A stretch of 64,000 nt of DNA, taken from contig NZ_CP046566.1 of assembly GCF_009740285.1 (NCBI RefSeq), positions 682,001 through 746,000 of the forward strand, in the 5' to 3' direction. Under the pieces are notes generated by a model that saw only the letters and a program-made list of their open reading frames with translations, was not told where the DNA came from and searched no databases. Of this stretch, positions 1,929 through 22,152 are shown piece by piece (within the stretch, counting starts at the first letter, position 1; the number at the start of each line of letters is the position of its first letter). Origin of the DNA: Phnomibacter ginsenosidimutans (GTDB lineage Bacteria > Bacteroidota > Bacteroidia > Chitinophagales > Chitinophagaceae). A program made the position numbers and the translations under genes.

Positions 1929-3458
1929 TTAATCGTTGATTTCTTTGTCTTTGGGGTTGAGGTACAGCACACCAATGATGAGACACACCAGTGCTACGCC
2001 AATAGGATACCACAAGCCTTGCAGGTACCACTGAGGATGATTGTTGGCTTTGGCAGTAGTAGCCAGATAAGTGGCCACTGCTGGTAGCAAGCCGCCAAAC
2101 ACACCATTGCCAATGTGGTAAGGCAGGCTCATAGAAGTGTAACGGATTTTGGTAGGAAACATTTCGACAAGGAATGCTGCAATGGGGCCATACACCATGG
2201 TAACGAACAACACTTGCACAAACACCCAAAAAATAAGCGTCCATTTATCGCTGCTATTGATATGAATGCTGGTGCTGATATCTTGTTTGTTTTTGCCGGC
2301 TTCTACAATGGGCAAGCCGTTTTGCAGCGGCAGCTTCTTTTCTACTACTGCTACAGTACCATCGGTATAAGTGGTGCTGGTGCTGTAGATGCTATCCTGT
2401 TGATTGTTGGTATGAGTAACGACGCTGGCAGTTGTGCTACTGGTTTGTACCGTTTTGTGTTGCAGGTTGGTGGTTTGATACATGCTTTCGTAAATAAACC
2501 AATAGCTGCAAATGGCAATGAGCATGCCGCCCATCATGATCCACTTACGGCCGAGTTTATCGCTGAGCCAACCAAACACGAGGAAGAACGGTGTGCCCAG
2601 CATAAGGGCAATAAACATGAGGCTGTCCACCTGGTCTTTGGCGATGTTCATGGTTTTTTCGAGAAAGCTCATGGCATAAAACTGACCGGTGTACCAGATA
2701 ACGCCCTGCCCCATGACTGCCCCAAACAATGCCAGCAATACAAACTTGAAATTGTACTTGTTGCCAAAGCTTTCTTTGAGTGGATTGGTGGAAGTTTTAC
2801 CGCTGGCTTTGGCCTTGGCGAAGATGGGCGACTCTTCCATGTTTTTGCGGATGAGGTAACTTACCAACACCATGAGGATGGAAACCCAAAACGGTACCCG
2901 CCAACCCCAGTCGTTGAACTGCTCTTTAGTAAGCGCAGCTCTTGTGCCCATGATAACGAGCAATGACACAAACAGGCCAACAGTAGCAGTGGTTTGTATC
3001 CAGCTCGTCATAAATCCACGCTGGTTGGCTGGTGAGTGCTCGGCTACATACGTAGCTGCGCCGCCATACTCGCCGCCCAGAGCAAGGCCTTGTAACAAAC
3101 GCAATACCAAAATGAGCAATGGTGCCATAAAGCCAATGGTTTCGTAGCCGGGCACACAACCAATTAAAAATGTAGCGCCGCCCATGAGCATAAGCGTTAC
3201 CATGAAGGTGTACTTGCGTCCAATTAAATCGCCAAGGCGGCCAAAGAACAAGGCGCCAAAAGGTCGCACCACAAAGCCAGCGGCAAAAGTGGCCAGTGTA
3301 CTCAGGAATGCCGCAGTTGGATTGCCCTGCGGAAAAAACTTGGTAGAAATAATGGAAGCCAGACTTCCGAAAATGTAGAAATCGTACCACTCAATCATGG
3401 TGCCTACAGAGCTGGCACCAATGATGGTGAAGAGCGAACTTTTTTTAGCGCTACTCAT
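1929..3458 (-). CDS. MFS transporter, metabolite:H+ symporter (MHS/ProP-like) type
   Basis: Inner-membrane transporter of about 509 residues. The N-terminus reads SVGTMIEWYDFYIFGSLAS, followed by FVVRPFGALFFGRLGDLIGR and LLQGLALGGEYGGAATYVAE, which are hallmarks of the MHS subfamily that carries carboxylates, amino acids or compatible solutes with protons. A polar loop of about 80 residues (rich in Thr/Ser, around residues 325-405) interrupts the second half before KWTLIFWVFVQVLFVTMVYG. The ATG at 3458 is chosen because the sequence before it (16 residues) is not family-like. It is divergent from acs with 364 bases between, so uptake of acetate or another short carboxylate is a reasonable guess from context; the substrate cannot be read from sequence. 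Confidence 0.85.
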   Translation of the reverse strand: MSSAKKSSLFTIIGASSVGTMIEWYDFYIFGSLASIISTKFFPQGNPTAAFLSTLATFAAGFVVRPFGALFFGRLGDLIGRKYTFMVTLMLMGGATFLIGCVPGYETIGFMAPLLILVLRLLQGLALGGEYGGAATYVAEHSPANQRGFMTSWIQTTATVGLFVSLLVIMGTRAALTKEQFNDWGWRVPFWVSILMVLVSYLIRKNMEESPIFAKAKASGKTSTNPLKESFGNKYNFKFVLLALFGAVMGQGVIWYTGQFYAMSFLEKTMNIAKDQVDSLMFIALMLGTPFFLVFGWLSDKLGRKWIMMGGMLIAICSYWFIYESMYQTTNLQHKTVQTSSTTASVVTHTNNQQDSIYSTSTTYTDGTVAVVEKKLPLQNGLPIVEAGKNKQDISTSIHINSSDKWTLIFWVFVQVLFVTMVYGPIAAFLVEMFPTKIRYTSMSLPYHIGNGVFGGLLPAVATYLATTAKANNHPQWYLQGLWYPIGVALVCLIIGVLYLNPKDKEIND

Positions 3459-12109: not shown

Positions 12110-13687
12110 TTATTTATACTGAGCAGCCAAACCCTTGGCGAGTTCGGTCATTTGCTTCAGGCTATCGTCGTTCAGATTGCCTTTTTTGAATTCAGCCAGT
12201 ACGTTGGGCAGTTTGTTCTCCATTTCCATCATAAAGTGCTCTTCAAAGGCCTTTACATTCTTAACCGCTACATCGCGGAGCAGGCCTTGTGTACCGAGGT
12301 AAATGATAGCTACCTGCTTTTCTACACTCATAGGAGAGTATTGCAGCTGCTTCAGGATTTCCACGTTACGGGCACCTTTGTCGAGTACCAGCTTTGTAGC
12401 AGCGTCCAGGTCACCACCAAACTTAGAGAAGGCTTCCATTTCGCGGTAAAGGGCCTGATCCAGTTTCAGGGTACCGGCTACTTTCTTCATCGACTTGATC
12501 TGGGCGTTACCACCTACGCGGCTTACAGAGATACCTACGTTAATGGCCGGGCGGATACCAGCGTTGAACAGGTTACCTTCCAGGAAGATCTGACCGTCGG
12601 TGATAGAGATTACGTTGGTAGGAATGTAGGCAGATACGTCGCCAGCCTGTGTTTCAATGATAGGCAGGGCAGTCAGACTACCGCCACCTTTCACCAAATG
12701 CTTGATGCTTTCGGGCAGGTCGTTCATGTTTTTGGCTACTTCATCTTTACCAATCACCTTGGCGGCACGCTCCAGCAAACGGCTGTGGAGGTAGAATACG
12801 TCACCAGGGTAGGCTTCACGACCGGGAGGACGACGGAGCAGCAGTGACACTTCACGGTAGGCCACAGCTTGCTTACTCAGGTCATCATAGATAATCAGGG
12901 CAGGACGTCCGGTGTCGCGGAAGAACTCACCGATGGCAGCACCGGCAAAAGGAGCGTAGAACTGCTGAGGAGCAGGGTCAGACGCAGAAGCCGCAACAAT
13001 AGTAGTATAGGCCATGGCACCATTGTCTTCCAGAGTCTTCATTACACCAGCAATGGTAGACGCCTTTTGGCCGATGGCTACATATATACAATATACAGGT
13101 ACACCAGCTTCGAAGAATTCCTTCTGGTTGATGATAGTGTCGATAGCAATGGCAGTTTTACCAGTCTGGCGGTCGCCAATGATCAATTCACGCTGGCCAC
13201 GACCAATAGGAATCATGGCATCGATAGCCTTGATACCAGTTTGGAGCGGTTCTTTTACCGGCTCACGGAAGATTACACCGGGAGCTTTGCGTTCCAACGG
13301 CATTTCGTACAGTTCGCCAGCAATCGGGCCTTTGCCGTCAATAGGCTGACCGAGGGTGTTGATTACACGACCCAGCAAACCTTCACCTACTTTAATAGAG
13401 GCAATCTGACCGGTACGGCGGGCTTTGTCGCCTTCCTTAATTTCAGCGCTGTCGCCCATCAGTACCACACCTACGTTGTCTTCTTCGAGGTTGAGGGCGA
13501 TGGCTTTTACGCCATTTTCAAATTCAACGAGTTCGCCACTCTTTACGTTGTTGAGGCCGTAAATGCGGGCAATACCGTCACCCACCTGAAGCACAGTACC
13601 TACTTCTTCCAGGTTGGCTGCGGCGTCAAAGTTGCTGAGCTGCTGGCGCAGAATCGCCGAAATCTCATCTGGCTTAATGTCCACCAT
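12110..13687 (-). CDS. atpA: F1 ATP synthase alpha subunit
   Basis: Regulatory/structural nucleotide-binding subunit of the F1 head of ATP synthase. 525 residues, full family length and intact. P-loop GDRQTGKT at 171-178, the segment [20 protein letters not shown], and the alpha-subunit signature [17 protein letters not shown] with the arginine finger. The N-terminal [15 protein letters not shown] matches Bacteroidota AtpA. In many Bacteroidota atpA sits inside atpBEFHAG; here there is a promoter directly upstream (13752-13782), a terminator directly downstream, and unrelated genes on both sides, so the gene appears to be its own transcription unit. Confidence 0.98.
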
Positions 13688-13751
13688 AGTTTTTTATTGA
13701 ATAGTGTAAAGAATTCAAGATTTCAGGGTTTACCCCTAAATTTTCAGGCCG

Positions 13752-13782
13752 CAAAAGTAAGGCACTATCCCTCAGTTAGCAA
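13752..13782 (-). promoter_or_regulatory. Candidate promoter of atpA
   Basis: Reverse strand: TTG (13780-13782), 20 bases, TACTTTTG (13752-13759), a full match to the Bacteroidota -33/-7 pattern, 65 bases before the atpA start. Confidence 0.65.
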
Positions 13783-13863
13783 AAGCATTTTTGGAAATGA
13801 CCGGCCCGATATTTTTCCTTTTCATTATGTAAGCACCAAACCACGCTGTCAGGCCAGTTGCGG

Positions 13864-14499
13864 CTACCCATTTCCCCAAATGAGCCAAGTCAGCATGGCC
13901 GCTACTATTATGGTAAATACCCAGCCCGGGTGAATGCGGGGCCGGCTGATAAAGTAATAAGGTACCATGCTGAGGCCCAATGCAATAACCCACCAACCCA
14001 TTTGGCCGTTATTGCCCAAAGCCCGGTTGTAGCCCGCATCATCTATAATATAGGTATTGGTTTTCGAGAGTAAACTGATTTGCACCCTTCCGCCGCCTCC
14101 CCGGTTGGCAAAGTGGCCTGCATTTACATCGTCGAGCCAAACTGTAATCTTATCGCCAGTTTGCAGGCTGCGTATCAGGCTATCTGCGCCAATGGCTTTC
14201 AGCGCAAAATTTTCAACAACTAAAAGTTTACTGTTTTCTTCAACTGGTATCAATACCAGATTTTTCTGGACAGATGAATCCATGCCCGGTTGATAAGGTT
14301 TACTTTTTACCGTGGCCTCTACTTTGGTTAACTTGTTTGCATCCAGCTGTTTTTTTCCAACAAGCAACCAACTACCTAACAGCAGCAACATGCCTACAGC
14401 TACTTTTCCCATGGTGCTGTTGAGTCCCTGCAGTATTAATCCTTCCATCATGTTACTACGGGAATTGGTATGCCGCCGAAAAGGTTGGTTCATGTGCAT
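13864..14499 (-). CDS. Membrane protein of unknown function
   Basis: 211 residues from the first ATG (14499); the ATG at 14451 (MMEGLILQG) is also possible and would remove a basic N-terminus. Visible parts: one hydrophobic segment (about residues 31-47, VAVGMLLLLGSWLLVG), an extracytoplasmic domain of about 100 residues with KNLVLIPVEENSKLLVVENF and DKITVWLDDVNAG, and two C-terminal hydrophobic segments (MGWWVIALGLSMVPYYF and GWVFTIIVAAMLTWLIW). No family recognised. It is followed by atpA on the same strand but atpA has its own promoter. Confidence 0.65.
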   Translation of the reverse strand: MHMNQPFRRHTNSRSNMMEGLILQGLNSTMGKVAVGMLLLLGSWLLVGKKQLDANKLTKVEATVKSKPYQPGMDSSVQKNLVLIPVEENSKLLVVENFALKAIGADSLIRSLQTGDKITVWLDDVNAGHFANRGGGGRVQISLLSKTNTYIIDDAGYNRALGNNGQMGWWVIALGLSMVPYYFISRPRIHPGWVFTIIVAAMLTWLIWGNG

Positions 14500-14810
14500 G
14501 CTAAAGAATTATCTGCTGGTAAATGTAAGCCCGGAAATTACATGCCGGGCCATGGCGATGCAGCAATGATTGTTCATGATCAATTACTTCGGCTTTTACT
14601 GATGCAATTCAGTACAACTACGCTTTGACACAGCATTAGCAGCTAATACTTTTACATCCACCAGCAATAGCTGCATACCCTGATTGTTAACTTGATGATT
14701 GTCAAAAAACGATGAACAGCATGCCTGTACCCCTTTCAGCGTATTGACAATGCCATGCACACACAGTACCTTCTACACATCATTTCTTCACTCCATAAAA
14801 ACAAACAAAC
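14500..14810. other. 311-bp intergenic region upstream of the DUF2589 operon
   Basis: Divergent region. No gene seen; the only clear signal is the promoter-like pair at 14625-14654. Confidence 0.5.
14625..14654 (+). promoter_or_regulatory. Candidate promoter of the DUF2589-protease operon
   Basis: TTG (14625-14627), 19 bases, TACTTTTA (14647-14654), one base off TAnnTTTG. The leader to the ATG at 14811 would be about 150 bases. Confidence 0.45.
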
Positions 14811-15503
14811 ATGGCTACCAGTAAAAAAGCAGCTGCACCAGCCCGCAGCCAAACCGCTACTAAGGCCGTTGCCACACGTAAGGCTTCTACCGAGCCGGTA
14901 GACGTTGCTGCCAAAGCAATCCGATCTGTTGCTGCATTAAGTGGCAATCCCCGTCCGCTGGGGGCACCCAGCACCAACCTCACCAGTGAGCTCAACAACA
15001 TCAACTTCCACAAGATGATTGGTGGCCCGCTGCAAGCCGCTATTGAAGCACAAACTGCTTCGGCAATGGCTACCATCAACTTTATCAATGCCGTAGGTTT
15101 TACAGAAGTCGACGGTAAAAAAGAATTGGTGATGGTCGACTTTTCGCATACCAAAAAAGATGTGGATGCGGAAGGCAAAGAAGTAAAAACCGATTCTTTT
15201 ATCAGGGTGCCCTTGCTGGCTATGCTGCCCATCCCCTCTATCCGAATCGAAACGGTAGACATTAACTTCAACGTAAAGCTGAACTCCGTTGAAACGTCCA
15301 ACACCAGCGACAAACTGAATGTAGCTGCCGAAGTAAAAGGCGGTTTTGGTCCGGTGAGCTTCAAAGTTTCTGCCTCTTACCAGCGCCAAAGCAGCACTGG
15401 TGTAAAGGTGGAAAAAGAATACAGCCTGAATGTGAAAGTAAAAGCCACTCAGGATGAAATGCCCGCAGGTTTGGAGAAAATCCTGAACATGCTGGCCAGC
15501 TAA
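14811..15503 (+). CDS. DUF2589 family protein
   Basis: 230 residues, no signal peptide, therefore probably cytoplasmic. An Ala/Lys/Thr-rich N-terminal tail (about 1-40) precedes a DUF2589-like core: IGGPLQAAIEAQTASAMATI (about 70-89), INAVGFTEVDGKKELVMVDF, IRVPLLAMLPIPSIRIETVD (about 131-150) and INFNVKLNSVETSN, then a second beta-rich half (KGGFGPVSFKVSASYQRQSS). DUF2589 proteins have no established function that I know. It is the first gene of a rightward cluster with two unknown proteins, a papain-like protease and a chagasin-like inhibitor. The beta-rich core with a hydrophobic centre suggests an assembly or binding protein, which is inference. Confidence 0.85.
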   Translation: MATSKKAAAPARSQTATKAVATRKASTEPVDVAAKAIRSVAALSGNPRPLGAPSTNLTSELNNINFHKMIGGPLQAAIEAQTASAMATINFINAVGFTEVDGKKELVMVDFSHTKKDVDAEGKEVKTDSFIRVPLLAMLPIPSIRIETVDINFNVKLNSVETSNTSDKLNVAAEVKGGFGPVSFKVSASYQRQSSTGVKVEKEYSLNVKVKATQDEMPAGLEKILNMLAS

Positions 15504-15588
15504 TCTTCCCAACGCATTTTCCATACAACATGCTACAGCGCCATGCCGGCTTGCCCGGTATGGGCTGTGGTTGTATCACTCTATTGTT

Positions 15589-16356
15589 ATGATTACCGTA
15601 GCACAATACCTCTCTTTTATTTTCAGCGAAATCACCCGGGCCCGTGTGATAGCCGACACCGAATCGGTACGCATTGCCGGCGAGTATGCTAAAGATCCGG
15701 TGATGAAACATTTCTCTGTACCAAGGTTTAAAATACCAGAACTGGAACTCAATATTCCCATGGTGATAGCGGGTGCACAGTACAACAACATTTACACGTT
15801 TACCTGGCAGTACGAAGAATTTGAAAAATTCATGCTCGGTTATGTCGATCGTTTTGGCCGGCAGTTTGCCAAACCCTTTCCCAACGATGCCAGAGAAATG
15901 ATGCCAGTGCGTCAGTTGATAAAAGAAGCGTATACAGACCTGAGTGAAATGCCCAATCTGCAAGACCTCAATCAACTGGTGATTGAAAAGAAGGAAGATG
16001 CAGTGCAACACATCGACAGGATTGTAAAAACACTCATGGGTATTTATGCAAATGTAGAGCGGGTAAAACCCAATCCGAATCCGTTGATTGTAACACGGTT
16101 CATTCGCATTCAAACCATGGAAGATTTGATAGCCGAATGGAAAAAAATGATACAGCAAACGCTGGGCGAAAACATCCGCCTCACAGATAGTGTACTGAAG
16201 AATCTGCTCATAAGTCCGGAAACACAAATAGTGAAAACAGAAGGCACAGATATATCCATTTTACAAATCAGGGCAAAGATTACCGAGGAAGGCATTTTCG
16301 TAAATAGTGTAACAAACGCAGAAGGCGAAGAAACCAAAGTAGTAGATTTCGAATGA
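15589..16356 (+). CDS. Unknown protein, second gene of the protease operon
   Basis: 255 residues from the ATG at 15589 (MITVAQYLSFIFSEITRARV); an ATG at 15571 is also in frame. No family recognised. The N-terminal third has VPRFKIPELELNIPMVIAGA, reminiscent of the membrane-facing beta strands in DUF2589-type proteins; the middle is helical (VRQLIKEAYTDLSEMPNLQD, then EWKKMIQQTLGENIR); the C-terminus returns to beta strands (ISILQIRAKITEEGIFVNS). No signal peptide or clear transmembrane segment. Its stop overlaps the next start in ATGA, so the two are translationally coupled. Confidence 0.75.
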   Translation: MITVAQYLSFIFSEITRARVIADTESVRIAGEYAKDPVMKHFSVPRFKIPELELNIPMVIAGAQYNNIYTFTWQYEEFEKFMLGYVDRFGRQFAKPFPNDAREMMPVRQLIKEAYTDLSEMPNLQDLNQLVIEKKEDAVQHIDRIVKTLMGIYANVERVKPNPNPLIVTRFIRIQTMEDLIAEWKKMIQQTLGENIRLTDSVLKNLLISPETQIVKTEGTDISILQIRAKITEEGIFVNSVTNAEGEETKVVDFE

Positions 16357-16937
16357 TACCTGTACTGCAATACCACAAACTGGAGCTGCTCGATAAGCTG
16401 ATGCTCGATGGCAGAAAAGTGTTTGCTTCTTACGAGATGCGGGACTATTATTTTGATGATCAGCTGAAGCAATGGTTGCAAGGATGCGACCAATTTTTCG
16501 AGCAACACAATGGTCCGGTGGAAAGATCAAAAATGAAATCCTTGTACACCGATTTTGCCACATTGCTTCGGGGCACCGATCCTTACAGCTTTGAAAAAAT
16601 AGAACGCAACAAACGTGCCCAGGAACTAACCATTGGCTACCGCATAGCAAGGGAAGCTTTGCAGGTGCTCATGGATTATTATCAGCTGGTATACAACCGA
16701 CTGGAAGAATCGAAAAACCTGATAGGGCAAATGGTTTTGGCCATGCTGCAAGCCGGCTTAATTACCACCAACGACATACAGAAAATGACCACGCAAAAGC
16801 ATAGCGAAACGCTTTGGCAAAAAATGGCAAAAGACAACCAGCTGCTATTGGTGCAGCAAAAAGTACTGCTGCAAACCAGCAAGTATGATGCCATCATTTT
16901 GCTGGGCTTGGTGCTCACAGCTTTGCGCCATAAATAA
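16353..16937 (+). CDS. Unknown mostly helical protein, third gene of the protease operon
   Basis: 194 residues, start overlapping the previous stop (ATGA). It is strongly helical and charged (LLDKLMLDGRKVFASYEMRD, EKIERNKRAQELTIGYRIAR), with a hydrophobic C-terminal stretch (SKYDAIILLGLVLTALRHK) that could be a membrane-contact helix. No family recognised and no cysteine/histidine pattern of an enzyme. The next gene, the protease, starts 37 bases downstream. Confidence 0.75.
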   Translation: MIPVLQYHKLELLDKLMLDGRKVFASYEMRDYYFDDQLKQWLQGCDQFFEQHNGPVERSKMKSLYTDFATLLRGTDPYSFEKIERNKRAQELTIGYRIAREALQVLMDYYQLVYNRLEESKNLIGQMVLAMLQAGLITTNDIQKMTTQKHSETLWQKMAKDNQLLLVQQKVLLQTSKYDAIILLGLVLTALRHK

Positions 16938-16974
16938 TGCTACACTTTTTTTCTACACCCCCAAAAATCACATT

Positions 16975-17886
16975 ATGGAAACATCGAACTATGGCATGGG
17001 CTGGTTGCCCGATTTGCCCGACTTCCGCGATTACACCGCCGACAGTACTGTAGTGCCCGCCAAACTGCTGGCTGTGGGCCGCACCGAAACTGTAAAAGCC
17101 ATGCTGGCTTCGGCCAACATTAAAGGTAGCAAGCCAGCAAAGGCACCAACAACTGCAGACCTTCGGGGTTGGTGCTCACCTATTGAAGACCAAGGTTCTA
17201 TTGGCAGCTGCACGGCTCATGCTGGTGTGGGTATGATTGAGTATTTCGAGAACCGTGCCTTTGGCCGCCACCTCGATGCCTCAAGATTGTTTTTGTACAA
17301 AGTAACCCGCAACATGCTCGGCTGGACCGGCGACACAGGTGCCTTTCTGCGCACCACCATGGGTGCCATGGCTTTGTTTGGCACGCCGCCAGAATCTTAC
17401 TGGCCCTATGTCATCAGCAAGTACGATCAGGAACCCAGTGCCTTTTTGTATGCTTACGGGCAAAGTTTTCAGGCCATTCAGTTTTACCGCCTCGATCCGC
17501 CGGGTACAGCCCGCCCCGATATTTTGACCAGCCTGAAAACACATTTGGCTGCAGGCTTACCTGCCATGTTTGGCTTTACCTGCTACAGCTCTTTGTATAG
17601 CGAAAGCGGTCGCAAGGGTATGATACCTTTCCCCAGTGCAACAGAAAAAACTGCTGGTGGTCATGCGGTAATGGCAGTTGGTTTTGATGACAACAAAACC
17701 ATCACCAACCCCAACGATAAAAAGAAAACCAAAGGCGCCATCCTCATCCGTAATAGCTGGGGAACTGGTTGGGGCGAAGCGGGCTACGGCTGGCTGCCGT
17801 ACGAATATATTTTGCGTGGCCTGGCCGACGACTTTTGGTGCCTCATCAAGAAAGAATACATCAATACCGGACAGTTCGGTATCTAA
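16975..17886 (+). CDS. C1 (papain-like) cysteine peptidase, no signal peptide
   Basis: 303 residues from the ATG at 16975. The papain triad is complete: Gln73 and Cys79 in EDQGSIGSCTAHAGVG, His230 in AGGHAVMAVGFDD, Asn260 in LIRNSWGTGWGEAGYGWLPY. A short N-terminal part (GMGWLPDLPDFRDYTADS) matches bacterial C1 peptidases that start with a W-x-P-D-x-x-D-x-R motif. There is no signal peptide, so it is expected in the cytoplasm unless exported by another route. The following gene encodes an inhibitor of exactly this protease class, and the three preceding genes are co-directional, which suggests a controlled intracellular protease. The target is unknown. Confidence 0.9.
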   Translation: METSNYGMGWLPDLPDFRDYTADSTVVPAKLLAVGRTETVKAMLASANIKGSKPAKAPTTADLRGWCSPIEDQGSIGSCTAHAGVGMIEYFENRAFGRHLDASRLFLYKVTRNMLGWTGDTGAFLRTTMGAMALFGTPPESYWPYVISKYDQEPSAFLYAYGQSFQAIQFYRLDPPGTARPDILTSLKTHLAAGLPAMFGFTCYSSLYSESGRKGMIPFPSATEKTAGGHAVMAVGFDDNKTITNPNDKKKTKGAILIRNSWGTGWGEAGYGWLPYEYILRGLADDFWCLIKKEYINTGQFGI

Positions 17887-17913
17887 GGAATCGCCATCTT
17901 TGATTTAGTACAT

Positions 17914-17965
17914 ACAGCAGGTTTCGGTGTTGCTACTGCACCGTCCTGCTGTTCTTTTATTTTTA
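17914..17965 (+). terminator. Hairpin with T-tract between protease and inhibitor genes
   Basis: ACAGCAGG (17914-17921) pairs with CCTGCTGT (17945-17952); inside, CGGTG pairs with CACCG, giving a long stem; TTCTTTTATTTTT follows. The inhibitor ATG is only 4 bases beyond the T-tract, so this looks like a partial terminator or attenuator that also sits over the inhibitor translation start. Confidence 0.65.
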
Positions 17966-17968
17966 CAT

Positions 17969-18247
17969 ATGCGTATCACATTGCACATTGGAGAAAGCAA
18001 AACCATTTTGCTGCAAAAGGAAGCTGTGGGCGGCTACAACTGGCAATTGCAGAATCCTGATGAAGAAAGTTTGCAAATCAGCACTTCAATATTGCCGGCC
18101 AAATCCAAAGTGATAGGGGCAGGTGCTGTACTCGAAGTAAAAATTACAGCTACCAAAAAAGGAACATTCCTGCTGTTGGCAACCTACTGCCGCAGTTGGG
18201 AAAAGCAAGCGGCTAAAGTGCAGCAATACGAAGTCGTTGTATTGTAG
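17969..18247 (+). CDS. Chagasin-like (I42 family) cysteine protease inhibitor
   Basis: 92 residues from the ATG at 17969, no signal peptide. The three inhibitory loops of chagasin can be placed: GGYNW (21-25, loop L2), GAGAV (50-54, where chagasins have GxGG, loop L4) and RSW (75-77, for RPW, loop L6), on an all-beta scaffold. Chagasins block papain-family (C1) proteases. It directly follows a C1 protease gene, so it most likely restrains that enzyme inside the same cell. Its expression probably depends on readthrough of the hairpin at 17914-17965. The GxGG loop is imperfect, so binding strength may differ. Confidence 0.85.
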   Translation: MRITLHIGESKTILLQKEAVGGYNWQLQNPDEESLQISTSILPAKSKVIGAGAVLEVKITATKKGTFLLLATYCRSWEKQAAKVQQYEVVVL

Positions 18248-18249
18248 GA

Positions 18250-19377
18250 TTATGATGAGGCTGATGTTTTCACAGCTTTCTTTTTTCGCCGTCCCCACCA
18301 AATGATAAAGCCGGTTATGGGTAAGCTAGCTGCCAGCAGGCTGGCCAGAAATGCCATGATTTTACCCGGTAGCCCGAGTACTGCACCAACATGAATATCA
18401 TAATTCATGCGAACAATTTTGTCGGCAAGTTTTGCAGTTGCAAATTTTCCTGCATAGCTGCCTGTTGCTTCCAATTCTTTCCCACTGTACTGATCATAAT
18501 GGTAAAAATCGCTGTTGTAATAAGTGCCCGGTTGATGATTAACAACAACCTCCAGCGGGTCTTCTTTTGTATGCGCAAAATACACCGCCATGCTTTCATG
18601 AGCTTTTACCTGTGGCAGATGCTGCTGCCATAAATAATCCGCCATAGATGCATGCTGCAATGGTTGAGTGCTATCGGAGTGCGGATGTTCATGTGGGGCC
18701 ATCTGTTCGCCGCCACTGCTCACGAAATAAATACTTTTTGCCACCCATTCAAATCCGAATGCCAGGCCACTGATAGCAATAAAGATGGCCACCCAGGTCA
18801 TGTAAAATCCGAGCACATTGTGCAGGTCGTAGTTCACCCTTCGCCACTTGGCATTCCATTTTATACTGAAGCGTTGTTTAAGACCTACTTTGCTTTTGGG
18901 CCACCACAGAATGAGGCCGCTAATCATAAGTATTACAAACATTAGTGTAGCAGTGGCTACAATGGGTTGGCCAATATGTGGTGGCAGCCACAGATAAAAG
19001 TGTCCATCAATGACGATGCGAAAGAAATCTTTCTTCATGTTTTTGTGCTGCAGCACTTCGCCAGTGTAGGGGTTGAGAAAGAGTAATTCATAATGTAACG
19101 AATCGTAGTAAGGGGCAATGGCTGCCTTGTCTTTTCCGGGATATTCAATGCCCAATGCCATGCCGGAAGTGAGGTGTTTGTTGGCAATGGTTTTGAGTTG
19201 AGACGGTGGCAAAAACGAACGGTTTTCAGGAATAACTTTTCTAAAGTCTTCGGTCCAGTTTCGGATTTCTACTTCAAAAGCAAGTATGCAACCAGTGAGG
19301 CCGAGAAAAACAACAATAAGCCCGGAACTTAAACCGAACCACAAGTGAATGTTGCGAATAATTTTTTTAAAACGCAT
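18250..19377 (-). CDS. PepSY-associated membrane protein (iron-regulated type)
   Basis: 375 residues, inner membrane. Four hydrophobic segments and the conserved histidines of the PepSY_TM family are visible: NIHLWFGLSSGLIVVFLG, RIVIDGHFYLWLPPHIGQ, VNYDLHNVLGFYMTWVAIF, MNYDIHVGAVLGLPGKIM. A His-rich loop (APHEHPHSDS) lies between helices 3 and 4. Proteins of this type are often encoded beside siderophore receptors and are thought to reduce or release iron from siderophores; this one follows a siderophore-type receptor on the same strand (129-base gap). Convergent and nearly abutting with the chagasin gene (2-base gap). Confidence 0.88.
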   Translation of the reverse strand: MRFKKIIRNIHLWFGLSSGLIVVFLGLTGCILAFEVEIRNWTEDFRKVIPENRSFLPPSQLKTIANKHLTSGMALGIEYPGKDKAAIAPYYDSLHYELLFLNPYTGEVLQHKNMKKDFFRIVIDGHFYLWLPPHIGQPIVATATLMFVILMISGLILWWPKSKVGLKQRFSIKWNAKWRRVNYDLHNVLGFYMTWVAIFIAISGLAFGFEWVAKSIYFVSSGGEQMAPHEHPHSDSTQPLQHASMADYLWQQHLPQVKAHESMAVYFAHTKEDPLEVVVNHQPGTYYNSDFYHYDQYSGKELEATGSYAGKFATAKLADKIVRMNYDIHVGAVLGLPGKIMAFLASLLAASLPITGFIIWWGRRKKKAVKTSASS

Positions 19378-19506
19378 GTGGGCAAGATGAAATTAGAAGA
19401 GCGATAAAAAGTATTGATACGGACCAGGTGCAGAAAGAAAACATGCATGCCTTGTATGTGAAGGCATCCATGTTTTCTTTAGTAAAGTTGCGAATGTGAT
19501 GTGCTC

Positions 19507-21876
19507 TTAGAAGCGGTAGTTTACACTGAAACGTGCATTGATGCCGGCTTCGGCCTGCCAATAAAAATAATCGGCGTAAGGCCCGCCAGAATAGAGGTAT
19601 TCATCCAGCAGATTGTTCACAAACAAATTGAATCCCATTTTTCCTTTCTGATACGATAAACCTGCATCCAAACGGAAGTAATCGGGCAAACTATTGTTGC
19701 TGCCATCAAACACAAACCACGGCGAACGTTTTGCCTGATATTGATAGCCCAACGAAATGCCCACGCCTGCCAATGCGCCTGTTTCAACACGATAATTGAG
19801 CCATGTGTTTTGTATGTGGCGACTGCTGCCTGCTACTTGTGTCCCAATGTTTTCAGGTTTGCTGTCTTCTGTTACTTTGGCTTCGGTAAAAGCATAATTT
19901 ACTACAACATCAAGACCACGAAACAGCTGTCCTTTAATGTCAACTTCCAAACCTTTGGTGGTTTGCTCTCCCGTTTGCCGATTGAAATAACCGCCGGCTG
20001 GATTGGGGTGTTCGAGGTCGGCAGTGAGAACATTTTTTCTGGTGATTTGATACACGGCTACAGTGCTGTTCCATTTCCCATTGAGCCAGTCTTTTTTAAT
20101 ACCCAGCTCCATGTTGTTACCCACAATGGGGTCAAATGATTTTCCCTGCCAGTCTGCACCAAAGTTTTCCATGAATGATTGGTCATTCAACGCATACAAA
20201 GCTGTGTTTTTATCCAGTGAAATACTTACACCTACACGTGGTGTGAAACGGGTGCTGTTGTAATCGCCGCTGTATGCATTGCCGGTGGTAAGCGATGTGA
20301 AACGACCAGCCAATGTAAGGCGTACCATGTTGTTGAAGAAACTCAATTCATCTTGCACATACATGCCTTTGTAACCATTGTAATACCGAACGCCACGTTC
20401 ACGAATGTTTTTGCTTCGATCAAAAACAGGAGCGGTAGCCGTGCCATATACAGGTGCATAAATATTGAACACAGTGCCCAATGCTGCACCCTGATTCCAA
20501 TCATGGTAATAGTCTTTATTGCTCAGGTCAATACCGGCTAAAATTTTGTGGCCAACACTGCCTGTTTGAACTTCTCCATTCAGGTATGCCTGTCCCATTT
20601 TGCTGATGCCTTCAATATCCCAAATGCTCATGCCGCGTTGCATCAGGCTGTCGTTGCCGGCCTGAAAGCCCCATGGCCACAGCGATGCACCACGCTGCTG
20701 ATAATTGAAGTAGGCAGCTTGTGCAGTAAACTTCCAACGGTCATTGAATTTGTGTTCAAAAATGGCCAGCACACTTTTGTCATTCATTTTGGTTGGTGCC
20801 AGCCTGGCTTCTGCTGTTGTAAAATCACGGGGCAAATCAGCATATCCTTTTTTAGAAAACAGGTAGTTGGAGCCAATCACGTTTACTTCAGCAAATTGAT
20901 GCGTGTACTCCAGTGTTACACTTGTTTTTTCATCAATCAAATATTTCAATACTGGTACAATGGAATAACGGTTGTTGAAATCATAATCGCGGTGAGCTCC
21001 TTTGAGCTGCCCCATGATGTTGAGGCGGTACAACAGTTTGCCGTCTTTGCTGAGTTTGCCATCTAGATCGGCAGATGTTCTGTAAAAATCAAAACTGCCG
21101 AGGCTCATACTTACTTCACCCTTGCTGCGTCCGCTTGGTTTTTTAGTTACCACATTGTAAAAGCCTGCGGGGTCGCCATTGCTAAGCATAAAGCCTGCCG
21201 GACCTTTTACAAATTCAATACGTTCTACCATGCTCATGTCTTCGGTAAGCGGCCCCCATGTGGTGCTTACATTCATGCCGTTTCTAAAGGCGGCCACACT
21301 ACTACCACGCATGGTTATGTTGGCGTAGTTGTCCCAGTGTTCCCTACGGGTAGCGCCGCTTACATTGCGGGTCACGCCTTCCAGCATATCGAAAATTTGT
21401 TGGTTGTAAATGAGTTTGGAAGTAACTACCTGAATGTTTTGCGGCAGCTGTTGAATGGGCGTTTGCAAACGCAGTGAACTGCTGATGCGGTTTGTTTTAA
21501 ACATGGATTTATTGCCCAGCACCACTACTTCATTCAGTTCCCTGTCTTTCAGTGTCAAAGAAAAACTCACATTGCTCGTTTGGCCAGCGGTTACTGTTAC
21601 TGTTTGGCTCACATCCTGATGACCAATGAGGGTGATGAATAAGGTATAGGTTCCTGCATTTAACCCGTTCAATTCAAAATGGCCATTGTTGTCGGCCACT
21701 GCACTACGATCGGTTGGCTGTATGCTGATGGTTACGCCTTCTGCAGGATGATTGTCTGCAGTAGTAATAGTACCAGATATATTTCCGGTGGCTTGCTGCG
21801 CCTGGCTAGTGATACTGTGTGCTACCAGTATGCTGCACAATAAAAGAATGAATGAAAATTGTTGTAGATGCTTCAT
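19507..21876 (-). CDS. TonB-dependent siderophore-type receptor
   Basis: About 789 residues from the ATG at 21876 (MKHLQQFSFILLL), with a signal peptide cleaved near SQAQQA. The domains in order are a carboxypeptidase-regulatory domain (ISGTITTADNHPAEGVTISI), a plug domain (LQTPIQQLPQNIQVVTSKLI, ITMRGSSVAAFRNGMNV, VERIEFVKGPAGFMLSNG, then GFYNVVTKKPSG), and a 22-strand barrel ending in the aromatic RFSVNYRF. The PQNIQVV and KGPAG/GFYN motifs are typical of ferric-siderophore receptors. It is transcribed before the PepSY membrane protein, together forming an iron-uptake unit. No Fur box was identified by eye. Confidence 0.93.
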   Translation of the reverse strand: MKHLQQFSFILLLCSILVAHSITSQAQQATGNISGTITTADNHPAEGVTISIQPTDRSAVADNNGHFELNGLNAGTYTLFITLIGHQDVSQTVTVTAGQTSNVSFSLTLKDRELNEVVVLGNKSMFKTNRISSSLRLQTPIQQLPQNIQVVTSKLIYNQQIFDMLEGVTRNVSGATRREHWDNYANITMRGSSVAAFRNGMNVSTTWGPLTEDMSMVERIEFVKGPAGFMLSNGDPAGFYNVVTKKPSGRSKGEVSMSLGSFDFYRTSADLDGKLSKDGKLLYRLNIMGQLKGAHRDYDFNNRYSIVPVLKYLIDEKTSVTLEYTHQFAEVNVIGSNYLFSKKGYADLPRDFTTAEARLAPTKMNDKSVLAIFEHKFNDRWKFTAQAAYFNYQQRGASLWPWGFQAGNDSLMQRGMSIWDIEGISKMGQAYLNGEVQTGSVGHKILAGIDLSNKDYYHDWNQGAALGTVFNIYAPVYGTATAPVFDRSKNIRERGVRYYNGYKGMYVQDELSFFNNMVRLTLAGRFTSLTTGNAYSGDYNSTRFTPRVGVSISLDKNTALYALNDQSFMENFGADWQGKSFDPIVGNNMELGIKKDWLNGKWNSTVAVYQITRKNVLTADLEHPNPAGGYFNRQTGEQTTKGLEVDIKGQLFRGLDVVVNYAFTEAKVTEDSKPENIGTQVAGSSRHIQNTWLNYRVETGALAGVGISLGYQYQAKRSPWFVFDGSNNSLPDYFRLDAGLSYQKGKMGFNLFVNNLLDEYLYSGGPYADYFYWQAEAGINARFSVNYRF

Positions 21877-22152
21877 GTGTTGCTGCAATTAATAAGGTGA
21901 TGTACAGGCAATACTTTACCATGCCGATGCTGCCTTATTTTTTTCAGCAGCTCAACTTGCAAGCATTGCCCTTTAATTTTTGTGAAACGGGTGCAAACGT
22001 ATTCAGCCATGGCAGTACTGCATTGCCGTATCGGGAAATGCGATTACGGAATGAGGAAATCGACTTTTTACAGGGAACATGTGATGGTCAGAAAAAAATG
22101 AAAGTGTTTTCCAACCCTGCGGTTGCGCTTTCCCTCTATAAAAAGAAAACAC

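Follow-up and report, generated by a model that had tools for sequence, protein, structure and literature searches.

Proteins of the chagasin/I42 family inhibit papain-like (C1) cysteine peptidases. Genes for a predicted peptidase and inhibitor of these families close a run of five co-directional genes in Phnomibacter ginsenosidimutans, behind a gene for a DUF2589 protein and two further genes, g2 and g3, which together with it are referred to as the triad, or core. The stretch analyzed (the window) comprises 64,000 nucleotides of contig NZ_CP046566.1, positions 682,001 to 746,000, and coordinates are counted from its first letter. The peptidase is closest to the xylellain-type C1A peptidases (Protein Data Bank (PDB) entry 3ois), with which it has family and catalytic set in common, and differs from them in its placement behind a DUF2589 triad. 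The inhibitor resembles chagasin and other I42 proteins in its loop positions and in its match above the Pfam I42 cut-off, whereas its gene adjoins that of the presumed target, stands behind a terminator-like hairpin and encodes altered loop letters. The locus as a whole recalls polymorphic effector–immunity modules, such as the effectors of type VI secretion systems (T6SS), which also join swappable lytic enzymes and small partners to a conserved core; unlike in those modules, no injection-system marker is present in the window's genome, and the core matches no solved structure usefully. In antiviral nuclease–protease pairs, as the cited passage describes them, a protease gene likewise repeatedly joins unrelated cores, but its partner there is a predicted nuclease, whereas here it is an inhibitor or small protein (PMC12799240). 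The DUF2589 family name is also borne by several genes in a row in Archaeoglobus fulgidus, AF0414–AF0417, for which the cited passage gives just a rise in these DUF2589-related genes during growth on lactate (PMC3949148). No description of a cassette of DUF2589, g2, g3 and a lytic enzyme was found in the portions of the literature searched.

We favor, at a probability of about 0.4, the reading of the locus as one form of a modular cassette, in which the triad is a carrier or release device, a lytic cargo is encoded behind it, and I42 silences the C1 peptidase. The three soluble core proteins would assemble into an oligomeric device, and the gene behind them would supply the cargo, which is a C1 peptidase here and a subtilase, a trypsin-like peptidase or an endolysin-type wall hydrolase elsewhere. 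I42 would occupy the C1 active site and keep the peptidase silent in the producing cell until a trigger, such as infection, damage or an encounter with a competitor, caused the core to let the enzyme out or take it to its target. The oligomer, the carriage or release, the trigger and the target are parts of this cassette that we only infer. A functional link between the triad and a lytic enzyme is likely over at least some of the triad's distribution; that the triad stores, carries or releases that enzyme is a guess.

Distribution of the triad and its follower genes

The triad of the window consists of genes for a DUF2589 protein (14811–15503, + strand, 230 aa; PF11655, E 1.1e-33, 117.2 bits against a cut-off of 23), g2 (15589–16356, + strand, 255 aa) and g3 (16353–16937, + strand, 194 aa). 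Searches of Pfam and NCBIfam assigned neither g2 nor g3 to any family. The triad was examined across 57 DUF2589 loci, namely the window, 24 loci from a genome-contig set, 25 from genome searches, 5 plasmid records and 2 viral or phage-labeled records; loci set beside that of the window carry labels of the form L###, and L064 and L065 are close kin of the window within this sample. The full triad was found in 35 of the 57 loci, always with its three genes on one strand (35 of 35) and in the order DUF2589–g2–g3 in all but 1 case (34 of 35), across the Bacteroidota, Actinomycetota, Planctomycetota, Pseudomonadota, Acidobacteriota and Chloroflexota. Within the genome-contig set it is present in 22 of 24 loci, the contig ending within g2 in L077 and L082. 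The 22 loci lacking a full triad contain one to three DUF2589 genes each, accompanied by g2 in 5. Among 98 genomes of the bacterial family, DUF2589 was found in 4 and g2 in the same 4; C1 was found in 74 of these genomes and I42 in 9.

The five genes of the window are two modules, DUF2589–g2–g3 and C1–I42. Thirty of the 35 triad loci have no C1 gene, and in L117 and L118, from genomes with no DUF2589 match, I42 is found behind a xylellain-type C1 gene. The initial annotation had proposed checking whether the five genes stay together in other genomes; the triad does (35 of 57 loci), but C1 stands behind only 5 of the 35 triads. These are the window, its close kin L064, L065 and L066, and L067, and an I42 gene comes after C1 in 4 of the 5 (the window, L064, L065 and L067).

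Genes behind the triad were then compared, the follower being defined as the first co-directional gene behind g3 at a distance of up to 300 bp and open reading frames (ORFs) being counted from 60 aa upward. A peptidase or endolysin-type enzyme is the follower in 12 of 35 triads (12 of 28 when only triads with a follower ORF are counted). In addition to the 5 triads followed by C1, a subtilase (S8) follows in L081, L089 and L098, a trypsin-like enzyme at the edge of the Pfam cut-offs in L079 and L080, a CHAP protein in L095 (263 bp from g3) and an M15C endolysin in L115. On the upstream side of triads lie GH46 in L084 (254 bp), DUF922 in L112 (66 bp), and in L092 a patatin at 667 bp and M15_4 at 2.0 kb. 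A wall hydrolase or caspase lies within 2.1 kb in 7 of the 22 non-triad loci: a lysozyme in L062, GH19 in L110 and L114, a muramidase in L007 and L063, Amidase_3 in L111, and a caspase with Amidase_2 in L082.

Second genes of small size accompany several of these peptidases, as I42 accompanies C1. In L079 and L080 the gene behind that of the trypsin-like enzyme encodes a small protein related to the N-terminal domain of the enzyme itself (5 of 1000 shuffles in L079 and 0 in L080); the small protein of L080 has, by eye, a possible lipoprotein-like start and may hence lie outside the cytoplasm. The S8 subtilase of L089 and L098 is followed by a 67-aa protein with no detectable relation to its neighbor. 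By eye this protein was considered a stray I9 propeptide, an idea discarded when as many as 241 of 1000 shuffles for L089 and 373 for L098 reached an equal score; in Pfam the L089 protein had no match, and that of L098 matched just DUF6038 at E 0.049, far below the cut-off.

Several observations weigh against the proposed cassette. No recognized peptidase or wall hydrolase lies directly behind g3 in 23 of 35 triads, which include all six from Chitinophaga in addition to rows from the Actinomycetota, Planctomycetota and Acidobacteriota, and the core must therefore act without one there. Seven of these 23 have no co-directional ORF of at least 60 aa within 300 bp. For each of the other 16, one ORF was searched against Pfam and was identified as SpvB/TcdB-like (L086), BNR repeats (L087) or glyoxalase (L096), or matched, below the cut-off, an outer-membrane protein (L093) or GH97 (L069), with nothing in 11; several of the match-less followers among these 16 look like chance ORFs. 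The frequency of 12 in 35 is far above the share of about 2% of genes that peptidases make up (PMC10178584), even allowing for kinship, although this is a generic base rate and the loci compared with it are not independent. When homologues of the enzymes, excluding the query itself, were sought, 13 genes were found within 2.1 kb of the core (219 kb) versus 0 in the 563 kb beyond, a control biased in that its queries were drawn from the near set. It also overlooked a patatin of L104, detected by Pfam at 2.3 kb from the core, its 13 genes include those of the near-identical window, L064 and L065, and its matches in L007 and L084 are weak (2e-6 to 3e-6) and due to a shared peptidoglycan-binding part. 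Of three further DUF2589 loci fetched after the pattern had been noticed (L139–L141), none had a family-supported peptidase or wall hydrolase, Pfam having been applied to three proteins from L139 and another three from L141, and neither kind of enzyme being seen in the ORF list of L140. Within the C1-bearing triads, L066 has a C1 gene with no I42 gene in the 1.2 kb stretch downstream, and a terminator-like hairpin parts C1 from I42 in the window. Finally, a fold search with the models of DUF2589 and g2 gave no match at E ≤ 0.001 that would support the idea of a carrier.

The models used in that search were made with AlphaFold2. That of DUF2589 is of low confidence (predicted local distance difference test score, pLDDT, 59.6; predicted template-modeling score, pTM, 0.39) and has a long helix at 66–96 followed by long strands. 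That of g2 (pLDDT 77.7, pTM 0.57) has a long N-terminal helix, strands and a helical insert. Hcp and tail-tube names among the fold matches, all at E ≥ 0.9, were set aside, as was a match of Vip1 to the DUF2589 profile at E 0.005. Homology between DUF2589 and g2, prompted by a similar pattern of a helix and then a strand with prolines, was dropped after a nonsignificant profile comparison (E 0.28). A phage origin was also considered and not retained: no PHROG matched DUF2589, g2, g3 or I42 at E 0.1, a single peptidase PHROG matched C1, and on the viral side the scans run gave relatives in a "phage" record of 4 kb and a viral contig of 7.4 kb.

Other features were noted around DUF2589 genes. 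A conserved protein of ∼90 aa adjoins paired DUF2589 genes or lies between them in six loci (L060 8842–9117, L061 8875–9150, L063 8906–9190, L109 9107–9373, L110 9317–9583 and L111 9434–9712), and the L111 copy matched no Pfam family at E 0.01. L007 (MT839761), a 4-kb bacteriophage-labeled record, contains DUF2589–g2–DUF2589 and its muramidase gene, and is too short for its phage status to be judged. Small proteins with papain- or caspase-like motifs by eye and no Pfam match are encoded in L139 (4385–5807), L141 (10237–11630) and L100 (10597–11025), and two PDB searches with the L139 proteins returned nothing useful. TIR-domain and patatin-like proteins are encoded 2.3–2.4 kb from a short single DUF2589 gene in two Bacteroidota loci (L103 10731–12272 and L104 10574–13948). 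The SpvB/TcdB-like protein detected by Pfam beside the triad spans 2622–6818 in L056/L086, and a protein resembling SpvB/TcdB by eye (L119 1–1505) lies beside a C1–I42 neighborhood of the signal-peptide-bearing kind.

Peptidase, inhibitor and the hairpin between them

The fourth gene (16975–17886, + strand, 303 aa) encodes a predicted papain-family cysteine peptidase of the xylellain type. It matches Peptidase_C1 (PF00112) at E 6.8e-12, with 46.4 bits against a cut-off of 20.7, and its closest PDB match is 3ois from Xylella fastidiosa (3.1e-31), the enzyme called xylellain. The full Gln/Cys/His/Asn set that the initial annotation had read from the sequence is borne out as Gln73/Cys79/His230/Asn260, invariant in 4 of 4 aligned triad-linked C1 proteins, and an N-terminal motif, GW-x-x-D-x-PD-x-RD, is common to the C1 proteins of the tree. 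In that tree the window C1 belongs to a clade of proteins of ∼300–315 aa, and the C1 proteins of L067, L117 and L118 to a separate clade of ∼250–280 aa. By a crude hydropathy check none of the five proteins has a signal-peptide-like N terminus from the named starts, which agrees with the earlier statement that protease and inhibitor lack signal peptides. The contrast then drawn with C1 enzymes as usually secreted needs correcting, as the cited passage reports intracellular C1 peptidases without signal peptide in prokaryotes (PMC10380794).

The two C1 clades, which contain the window and L067 proteins, respectively, are split at 100/100, and both also hold C1 proteins from same-family genomes with no DUF2589 match. 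In a tree built from the concatenated triad proteins, a constraint that grouped the four C1-bearing rows was rejected (approximately unbiased test, p-AU 5.4e-5); L064, near-identical to the window's kin, was left out of this tree, and L081 was labeled "none," its subtilase having been found later. This clade split and this rejection indicate that C1 joined a triad, or was exchanged there, on at least two occasions, and in both lineages I42 stands behind it. Nearest to the triad group of the window are two trypsin-linked triads, from the Chloroflexota and Bacteroidota, at 90/76, which is below the mark for firm support.

The fifth gene (17969–18247, + strand, 92 aa) encodes a chagasin-type inhibitor, matching Inhibitor_I42 (PF09394) at E 2.4e-13 with 50.6 bits against a cut-off of 27.2, and matching chagasin at 2.4e-5 in a PDB search. 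An upstream GTG in the same frame would give a more hydrophobic N terminus; the ATG start agrees better with the family alignment. Chagasin has three loop motifs, NPTTG in L2, GXGG in L4 and RPW/F in L6; according to the cited passage, deleting two L2 residues abolished papain inhibition, and the effects of single residue changes depended on the target (PMC2607524). Three chagasin loops had been claimed for the window protein, and they do lie at the chagasin positions, with L2 aligned without a gap and its length kept, but the motif letters are mostly altered (NPTTG to EAVGG, GXGG to GAGA and RPW to RSW). By analogy with the family, I42 is likely to silence the C1 peptidase of the window. The same genome has a second I42-type match ∼80 kb from the five genes and outside the window (L135, ∼2782–3303), which has a signal peptide by eye and no C1 match in its 6-kb stretch.

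A hairpin on the + strand at 17914–17952 (−22.4 kcal/mol, z −5.42, 0 of 200 shuffles) lies between C1 and I42 and is followed by a U-rich tract, UUCUUUUAUUUUU, with the I42 start codon 16 bases downstream. Folding of the region before I42 was extended to L064, L065, L067, L117 and L118. L065 has the same element (z −4.5), as does L064 (z −5.3), where, with the stems compared by eye, the inner stem is changed on both sides. In L117 a hairpin and U tract precede I42 (z −2.5), and in L118, which has two C1 genes, a hairpin and U tract follow the second and precede I42 (z −3.5). L067 has a weaker, AT-rich hairpin before I42 (z −1.8), with 11 of 200 shuffles as good. As the window hairpin is terminator-like, I42 is perhaps reached solely by read-through; I42 may depend on read-through past it, or the operon may end after C1. 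Such a hairpin could also be an attenuator setting the ratio of protease to inhibitor. A second stable hairpin, with no U tract, lies between DUF2589 and g2 (15523–15576, + strand, −31.1 kcal/mol, z −4.0, 0 of 200 shuffles) and could separate the expression levels of these two genes. Rfam gave no match at E 0.1 over 14400–18500. Three more I42–C1 neighborhoods, L119–L121, are by eye of the signal-peptide-bearing kind.

The five rightward genes of the initial annotation stand as five co-directional ORFs, three of them Pfam-supported, and the ATGA overlap is that of g2 and g3. Its view of them as one operon fares less evenly. The short gaps (85, −4, 37 and 82 bases) and the ATGA overlap are in its favor; the hairpin before I42 and the lack of a promoter match are not. 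No sigma-70-like match was found on the + strand in 13500–14811, such matches over 13500–19500 number 10 versus 9.1 expected, and no exact match to the Bacteroidota-type TTTG-N17-25-TAnnTTTG lies upstream of DUF2589 on the + strand in 13500–14811, the sole match of this type in the window being on the minus strand at 13752–13783. The single candidate promoter proposed earlier is accordingly not supported.

Competing explanations and meaning

A different use of the same proteins would be triggered self-destruction, in which a cytoplasmic triad acts as a sensor and switch: phage infection or damage would lead it to release the protease from I42, or to activate the other lytic enzymes, and the enzyme set loose would then kill the cell or halt its growth. 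The partners found near DUF2589 (papain-like and trypsin-like peptidases, subtilase, caspase, patatin and wall hydrolases) appear to overlap with the effectors of abortive defense. The distribution is also patchy, with matches in 19 of 296 Bacteroidota genomes, 7 of 299 Pseudomonadota, 1 of 296 Actinomycetota, 2 of 321 Chloroflexota and 3 of 307 Acidobacteriota, each count including the center genome. We nevertheless regard this explanation as unlikely. PADLOC had no match for four of the proteins and matched g2 weakly to PDC-S06 (E 0.0034), no defense island was seen in 12110–21888, where the gene upstream of the locus is one that probably encodes the ATP synthase alpha subunit and that by eye is found upstream in L077 too, and cytoplasmic wall hydrolases would need export to reach peptidoglycan. 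A gene between this neighbor and the locus is found, again by eye, in L066, and these shared upstream genes suggest stable vertical inheritance, as would suit regulated housekeeping proteolysis, with the triad as scaffold or regulator of an ordinary intracellular peptidase and its inhibitor and no conflict or killing involved. The lack of signal peptides and the prokaryotic intracellular C1 peptidases on record (PMC10380794, in the passage cited) point the same way. Unrelated enzymes with substrates as different as proteins and peptidoglycan behind one core are unexpected for the scaffold of one protease, and we consider housekeeping quite unlikely.

That the triad and an independent C1–I42 pair are merely adjacent by chance accords with each module being found alone, in the 30 triads without C1 and in L117 and L118, and with the hairpin between C1 and I42. 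It is made improbable by C1 and I42 having come to stand behind a triad on two or more independent occasions, and by the presence of other peptidases in the same place. Least probable, and very much so, is that a T6SS or an extracellular contractile system carries the enzymes as cargo, loaded by the triad, while I42 provides immunity. The enzyme classes do resemble T6SS effectors, a Tle1-like phospholipase lies 1.2 kb from the core in L111, and antibacterial protease toxins with immunity proteins exist, as the cited passage describes (PMC12136450); but the PF04717 spike family has 0 matches in the window's genome (one contig, 99.39% complete) and is not enriched with DUF2589, being present in 15 of 34 genomes with it versus 12 of 34 without. 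The idea of a caged or triggered protease module in the initial annotation thus survives in part, as a protease held by its inhibitor and tied to a device, for which the triads beside unrelated lytic enzymes and the C1–I42 pair joined at least twice speak. Its further suggestion of defense or cell–cell conflict is still conjectural, given the absence of a contractile-injection marker and a PADLOC result limited to the weak g2 match.

Returning to the modular cassette, a broader and rather doubtful version of it would place the triad at the heart of a machine not described so far and found in several phyla, which would store soluble lytic enzymes lacking signal peptides and put them to use, its non-homologous cargoes being swapped and its protease cargoes often having a small inhibitor or inhibitor-like partner. 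Should that hold, it would constitute a new route by which cytoplasmic enzymes are released or aimed, independent of contractile injection systems. At the more modest level, a bacterial cytoplasmic C1 peptidase beside a chagasin-type inhibitor offers a clean system for studying I42 function. As unrelated enzymes occur with one core, the idea lends itself to a direct test, in which an identical core could be combined with different cargoes. If the triad does store, carry or release lytic enzymes, this would be a first function for DUF2589 and for two families unnamed in Pfam and NCBIfam, and a delivery or control device would be added to the known secretion, lysis and defense systems.

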